Notes under the pieces: generated by a model | Told to the model about the DNA's origin: nothing | Database searches by the model: none | Seen by the model: only the letters and a program-made list of their open reading frames with translations | Assembly (NCBI GenBank): GCA_913020435.1 | Contig: CAJVZZ010000014.1 | Location: 1 to 64,000 of the forward strand | DNA from: an uncultured Flavobacteriales bacterium | GTDB taxonomy: Bacteria > Bacteroidota > Bacteroidia > Flavobacteriales_G > Salibacteraceae | Reading direction: 5' to 3' | Length of the DNA stretch: 64,000 nt | Shown here: positions 53,832 to 54,287 of the stretch, piece by piece | Numbering within the stretch: position 1 is the first letter of the stretch | Layout: each line of letters begins with the position of its first letter | Position numbers and translations under genes: made by a program

Positions 53832-54287
53832 ATGAAATCGATACATACTCGGATTAAAGATTTACGCATTAAAAAGGGTTACTCCCAAGAATATTTGGGT
53901 GGCAGGATAGGAATTACTCAAAAAGCATATTCAAATTTAGAAGCGGGTAATTGTAAAATTCCTTGGGCTCGTATAGTTGAATTATCGAGGGTTTTAGAGG
54001 TGGATATTATGTATTTGGCAAAAGATAATATTGATAAAAAAGTTGAATCAATTAAAGAGACTGGATTGTCATCGATAGAAAATGAAGCTTCCATGTTTAC
54101 ATTAATGCAACAAATGATTGAATCATTACGCGCAGAAATAAACCTACTTAAGAAGCAAAATGCACAATTATTGGATTTATTATCCGAAAAAAAGTCACAG
54201 ACAGACAGACAGACAGACAGACAGACAGACAGACAGACAGACAGACTAAGAATGTGCCTTAATTCTAACCTACCTTACTTAAACTGA
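53832..54287 (+). CDS. XRE-family transcriptional regulator with a tetranucleotide repeat in its 3' end
   Basis: A 151-residue protein. Residues about 5-62 are a Cro/CI-type helix-turn-helix (IKDLRIKKGYSQEYLGG, ITQKAYSNLEAG). Residues about 85-120 form a coiled coil (LMQQMIESLRAEINLLKKQ) that could dimerise. Codons from about 122 are a pure (ACAG)n tract, giving the tail QTDRQTDRQTDRQTDR. Slippage by one unit would change the C-terminus: 151 residues now, 137 after losing one unit, 144 after gaining one. The last 13 bases overlap the convergent EnvC-like gene. The operator array directly upstream is the likely site of autoregulation and control of the divergent operon (inference). Confidence 0.9.
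   Translation: MKSIHTRIKDLRIKKGYSQEYLGGRIGITQKAYSNLEAGNCKIPWARIVELSRVLEVDIMYLAKDNIDKKVESIKETGLSSIENEASMFTLMQQMIESLRAEINLLKKQNAQLLDLLSEKKSQTDRQTDRQTDRQTDRLRMCLNSNLPYLN
54197..54246 (+). repeat. Simple sequence repeat (ACAG)12.5
   Basis: Fifty bases of uninterrupted period-4 sequence within the XRE coding region. No reading frame through it contains a stop codon, so the protein length depends only on which frame leaves the tract: TGA at 54285, TAA at 54247 or TAA at 54260. Pure tetranucleotide tracts of this length are typical of phase-variable loci. Confidence 0.97.

Follow-up and report, generated by a model that had tools for sequence, protein, structure and literature searches.

Can a long tetranucleotide repeat near the 3' end of a regulator gene act as a phase-variation device, or is it a slippery sequence that the protein tolerates? 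This question is raised by a run of ACAG units inside the gene for an XRE-type regulator in the window, the whole 64,000-nucleotide stretch of DNA that was analysed here. The analysis revealed a tract that is real, rare and well conserved in position. It is a candidate C-terminal phase-variation locus; the likeliest reading is a tolerated slippery tail. The features at this end of the locus are listed below, where G000 denotes the genome of the window and G001 and G002 are other species of the genus, with one genome compared per species.

53832–54287, + strand: XRE-type regulator gene, 151 aa (open reading frame; Pfam HTH_3, E 1e-8; structure model; dN/dS)
54197–54246, + strand: (ACAG)12.5 tract, TDRQ in all frames; the orthologous tracts are 31 bp in G001 and about 19–22 bp in G002
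54247–54287, + strand: non-conserved tail, LRMCLNSNLPYLN in the assembled frame; alternative stops at 54247 and 54260

A long and rare ACAG tract in the regulator gene

The original prediction of a (ACAG)12.5 tract at 54197–54246 was borne out to the base: a perfect period-4 run of 50 bases lies within the open reading frame 53832–54287 (+), in the last fifth of the gene. Its length is far beyond chance; the next-longest period-4 run in 304 kb sampled from the same genome was 15 bp, and the maxima in 20 first-order Markov simulations of 304 kb ranged from 12 to 16 bp. A pattern search of the 2.95-Mb assembly revealed no second occurrence of five or more ACAG units. Among 35 genomes of the family, six units were present only in G000 and G001, at the regulator gene in both, and a sample of 394 other genomes of the class contained no run of seven.

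The predicted stops of the three frames (TGA at 54285, TAA at 54247 and TAA at 54260) were correct, as were the lengths of the variants, 137 aa after the loss of one unit and 144 aa after the gain of one, compared with 151 aa as assembled. It is also true that no stop interrupts the tract in any of the three frames, but the emphasis placed on this point needs correction, since it is a property of the ACAG unit, which contains no T and encodes T-D-R-Q, in rotation, in each of the three frames. A role of the tract as an RNA hairpin or terminator was rejected; none was found there, and the tract RNA folds worse than shuffled sequence (z +2.2).

Slippage would alter the tail and retain the DNA-binding domain and coil

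The regulator is composed of an HTH_3 domain (residues 8–61; PF01381, 35.5 bits against a cut-off of 23), a linker (about 64–86), a helical coil (about 87–120) and the TDRQ repeat with the tail (121–151), and its profile matches SinR and similar solved structures. The dN/dS of the regulator was 0.07 against G001 and 0.16 against G002. Comparison of G000 with G002 by region gave about 0.07–0.08 for the HTH and coil and 0.23 for the linker; by these ratios the HTH and coil experience strong purifying selection and the linker less. Beyond residue 120, nothing except the repeat is conserved among the three species. A stop follows the tract within 0–14 residues in every frame of all three species, and no long or conserved tail was found in any of these frames; the tail peptides (LRMCLNSNLPYLN, IKISTYNMPILIAS and ITLKEVYLN) are unrelated. 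The last 13 bases of the regulator gene overlap the 3' end of a convergent M23 peptidase gene, and the C-terminal YLN that G000 shares with G002 is encoded across the conserved end of that gene.

In having an HTH_3 domain followed by a short helical tail, the protein resembles the XRE (HTH_3) and coil regulators of Bacteroidota with a SinR-type fold. It differs from its XRE relatives in other genera, which mostly terminate at or soon after the coil, where the tract begins, and have no repeat extension. The C-terminal extension looks like a lineage-specific addition to an already complete protein.

The expectation that the tail varies and not the HTH was upheld, as slippage would alter the tail alone and leave the HTH and coil intact. 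On/off phase variation of the classical contingency type was rejected because the HTH and coil are retained complete in every frame, the gain or loss of one unit giving proteins of 137–151 aa. With TDRQ in all frames, no long frame, unconserved tails and relatives that end at the coil, the tract cannot be an on/off switch; judged from these comparisons, it would be at most a tuner of the tail, and a tolerated slippery extension is more likely. In the tetranucleotide contingency loci of Haemophilus influenzae, the tracts are located close to the 5' end, where they turn translation on or off. The regulator's tract is similar to these in its tetranucleotide unit, its long perfect run and the slippage expected of it, but it lies at the 3' end and cannot switch.

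The tract is fixed in position and variable in unit number among species

Orthologues of the regulator were present in G001 (contig CAJIZH010000003.1, Flavobacteriales bacterium UBA6770; 98% identical over 120 residues) and in G002 (PAME01000001.1, Crocinitomicaceae bacterium SAT3021; 76% identical). Directly behind the coil, at the same codon position, there are 12.5 ACAG units in G000, about 7.75 in G001 and about 5 in G002; the position of the tract is conserved across the three species and the unit number is variable. Since slippage predicts a fixed position and a differing count, these counts fit slippage, and the original prediction of a slippage-prone tract stands to this extent. The tract remains perfect ACAG across the deep divergence between G000 and G002 (regulator dS about 1.2), a persistence perhaps longer than useless DNA would show, which could hint at selection on the tail. 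In each of the three species, the assembled frame gives the longest tail (chance, 1 in 27), which could likewise be a weak hint of such selection.

Promoter palindromes and probable local autoregulation

Upstream of the regulator gene, two perfect palindromes AGAAGCnnnGCTTCT and one degenerate palindrome are spaced 20 bp apart at 53766–53820.

53766–53780, no strand: palindrome AGAAGC-tgc-GCTTCT, candidate operator 1
53786–53800, no strand: palindrome AGAAGC-ata-GCTTCT, candidate operator 2, identical in three species
53806–53820, no strand: degenerate palindrome AGTAGC-atc-ACTTCT, candidate operator 3, 20 bp from operator 2

The palindromes are conserved in G001 and G002, the first being degenerate in G002. 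Exact copies of AGAAGCnnnGCTTCT occur twice in G000 and once each in G001 and G002, always at the regulator promoter, and are absent from G003, a genome without a close regulator. Given this co-occurrence of palindrome and regulator across genomes, local autoregulation is the best reading, and the regulator is probably an autoregulator that binds these putative operators at its own promoter. The divergent gene arrangement and the palindromic operator candidates are further likenesses to Bacteroidota XRE regulators. A function as a global regulator is unlikely, as exact operator matches occur only at the regulator's own promoter.

History of the module

The regulator forms a module with two secreted-protein genes on the opposite strand.

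50550–54273, no strand: whole module, regulator and two secreted-protein genes; boundaries approximate
51789–53711, − strand: divergent gene for a predicted secreted 640-aa protein, fold unknown; no Pfam or NCBIfam match, low-confidence model
50600–51769, − strand: gene for a secreted protein with a type IX secretion C-terminal sorting domain (Por_Secre_tail PF18962, E 8e-9; TIGR04183)

The sorting domain found by both profiles marks the product of 50600–51769 as type IX cargo. Profile searches of Pfam and NCBIfam returned no match for the product of 51789–53711, and its structure model (mean pLDDT 53) was too poor for a fold search. In the window, the module is flanked by a GATase-domain gene and the M23 peptidase gene. 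This site is empty in G001 and G003; G002 retains the tract at the same site as G000. The G001 module lies between genes for an alanine dehydrogenase and an M48 peptidase (extract L040, about 2670–6500), and at that site G000 contains a remnant 84% identical to the sorting-domain end of the G001 copy. Inspection by eye of the same alanine dehydrogenase/M48 site showed an apparent GIY-YIG-type gene in G002 (C4, about 98850–99450) and G003 (C4, about 295050–295700).

Comparison of G000 with G001 gave a dS of 0.10 for the regulator and of 0.75 and 1.2 for the secreted genes, and the orthologue of the neighbouring M23 gene was 97% identical. Along the module, identity steps from roughly 70–80% to about 97% near 53500. 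The regulator–promoter block, at about 97%, stands against adjoining secreted genes that are mostly 65–90% identical with a few more similar patches, which argues for past recombination or gene conversion. We infer from these patterns an ancestor with two diverged copies of the module, in which recombination homogenised the regulator block before each lineage lost a different copy.

A frameshift disrupts the divergent gene in G001 (L040:3958-5880) and most of it is deleted in G002 (L041:5250-5881), and the regulator is intact in both and under purifying selection; control of the divergent gene is therefore not the sole reason for keeping the regulator. Expression of 51789–53711 and 50600–51769 had been proposed as a read-out of repeat variants, and the breakage of the 51789–53711 homologue in both relatives makes this pair a poor choice in general. 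Carriage by a plasmid was rejected, as the database search returned no match to plasmids, and a viral origin was rejected with a single weak, partial viral match. Elsewhere in the window, a stretch of about 30 bases at 48315–48361 matches several scattered places in G001, G002 and G003, which points to a small repeat dispersed through the genus.

Preferred explanation of the tract and its alternatives

The explanation that we consider probable is a genuine slippage-prone repeat in a C-terminal extension that is tolerated and specific to the lineage, carried by a small XRE repressor that regulates itself. ACAG units would be gained or lost by replication slippage, as the differing counts in the three species suggest, and since any frame encodes T-D-R-Q, what changes would be how far a hydrophilic, probably helical stretch prolongs the coil. 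Slippage would also select which short, non-conserved tail ends the regulator; the DNA-binding HTH and the coil, which presumably forms the dimer, would by their sequence remain untouched. The extension would be tolerated and would at most tune stability or dimer behaviour, with no on/off switching, and the regulator would bind the three palindromes in its own promoter, which is shared with the divergent secreted-protein gene. If the tail is irrelevant, the locus would provide a clean example of a hypermutable tract that is tolerated because ACAG is stop-free and gives the same harmless peptide in every frame.

Selected C-terminal phase variation is the alternative that survives best, although we regard it as unlikely. 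The three frames would then yield regulators of differing activity or half-life, for example through a hydrophobic or a charged C-terminus that alters proteolysis, and clonal cells would differ in repression of the module. Precedents exist in Helicobacter canadensis (Snyder et al. 2010, PMC2823697) and Neisseria gonorrhoeae (PMC5320596); the tracts described there are homopolymeric, those compared here lie in enzymes or in flagellar, membrane or secreted proteins, and length variation between strains or reads was demonstrated. The regulator is like these systems in that the repeat lies near the 3' end, each frame gives a different short C-terminus, and a protein with its main domains is made in every frame; it is unlike them in its tetranucleotide unit, in encoding the same peptide in all frames, in being an HTH regulator and in count differences that lie between species. 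The persistence of the tract in three species, with the longest-tail frame assembled in each, speaks for such selection, but the tails are unrelated between species, even at the shared site of G000 and G002 apart from the YLN that overlaps the neighbouring gene, and two of the three species have a broken copy of the divergent target gene. We also consider it rather doubtful that the repeat behind the coil, with one repeat peptide in all frames and a switch in the terminal residues alone, resets the activity or half-life of the repressor at random among clonal cells. Such a repressor would be a transcription regulator with C-terminal phase variation in a free-living marine bacterium. If the tail does matter, repeat slippage would provide graded, reversible tuning of a repressor instead of an on/off switch. 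Searches of the open-licence literature found no report on the peptide TDRQTDRQ or on HTH regulators with tetranucleotide repeats, and none of such repeats in this lineage of probably marine Bacteroidota.

A second alternative attributes the oligomeric state to the count of TDRQ units and not to the frame, with more or fewer units making the helix behind the coil longer or shorter. The structure model contains a single helix from residue 81 to 145 through the TDRQ part (block pLDDT about 82–95 to residue 140), and the unit counts differ widely between species. However, AlphaFold is prone to over-extending terminal helices, so the modelled helix through the repeat may be an over-extension, and TDRQ has neither a hydrophobic residue nor a heptad pattern and hence cannot extend a coiled-coil core. 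Tuning by repeat length seems quite improbable.

We give an equally slim chance to the possibility that the tract matters as DNA, marking the end of the block common to the module copies and aiding, or resulting from, their recombination. The homology of the G000 module to that of G001 stops within the tract, at 54227, and the past recombination suggested by the homogenised block would be in keeping with such a role. Yet the downstream DNA must differ anyway because the copies are at different loci, G002 has the tract at the same site as G000, and inspection of the module ends by eye showed neither a transposase nor terminal repeats nor target duplications.

An assembly or sequencing artefact is scarcely credible, for although G001 and G002 are metagenome assemblies, the window's assembly is in 50 contigs and repeats are prone to miscounting, the tract occurs at the same codon in three separate assemblies on long contigs (90 kb, 890 kb and 1.2 Mb); the exact unit count may be uncertain even with a real tract.

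ACAG tracts in phage genes

A scan of IMG/VR viral contigs for seven ACAG units revealed at least 120 stretches. Among the matches listed, 54 tracts lie in open reading frames of 100 aa or more, and in 52 of these the coding strand is the ACAG strand, giving TDRQ; this suggests that, as the preferred explanation would have it, the TDRQ peptide is generally tolerated inside proteins. The tracts recur in certain gene families, which were assigned by Pfam on one member of each group. The largest cluster among the matches listed comprised at least 22 genes, its tested member having a PAPS-reductase domain, and the second at least 13 genes, its tested member being a C5 cytosine methyltransferase; the same set contained smaller groups or single cases of a type I specificity subunit, an N6/N4 methylase and a reverse transcriptase.

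In the PAPS-type genes, the tract lies about 135 codons in; one frame opens about 250–290 more residues and the others stop early. Among the matches listed, 17 PAPS-type genes have a frame that continues past the tract for at least 200 aa without a stop; five of them are assembled in this long frame and 12 in a short one, a long-frame share near the one third that free slippage would give. By their sequence, these phage tracts look like on/off phase variation. A tract of this type can remove half a protein, whereas that of the window's regulator cannot. PAPS-reductase-like contigs are found among L117–L196 (e.g., L177:8196-9521, L149, L190, L194 and L136), and the C5-methyltransferase-like cluster is found on L123, L144, L155, L157, L161, L166, L167, L170, L182, L184, L186, L187 and L195. 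Further phage contigs with ACAG tracts in genes are L150 and L178; L174, L179 and L196; and L156.
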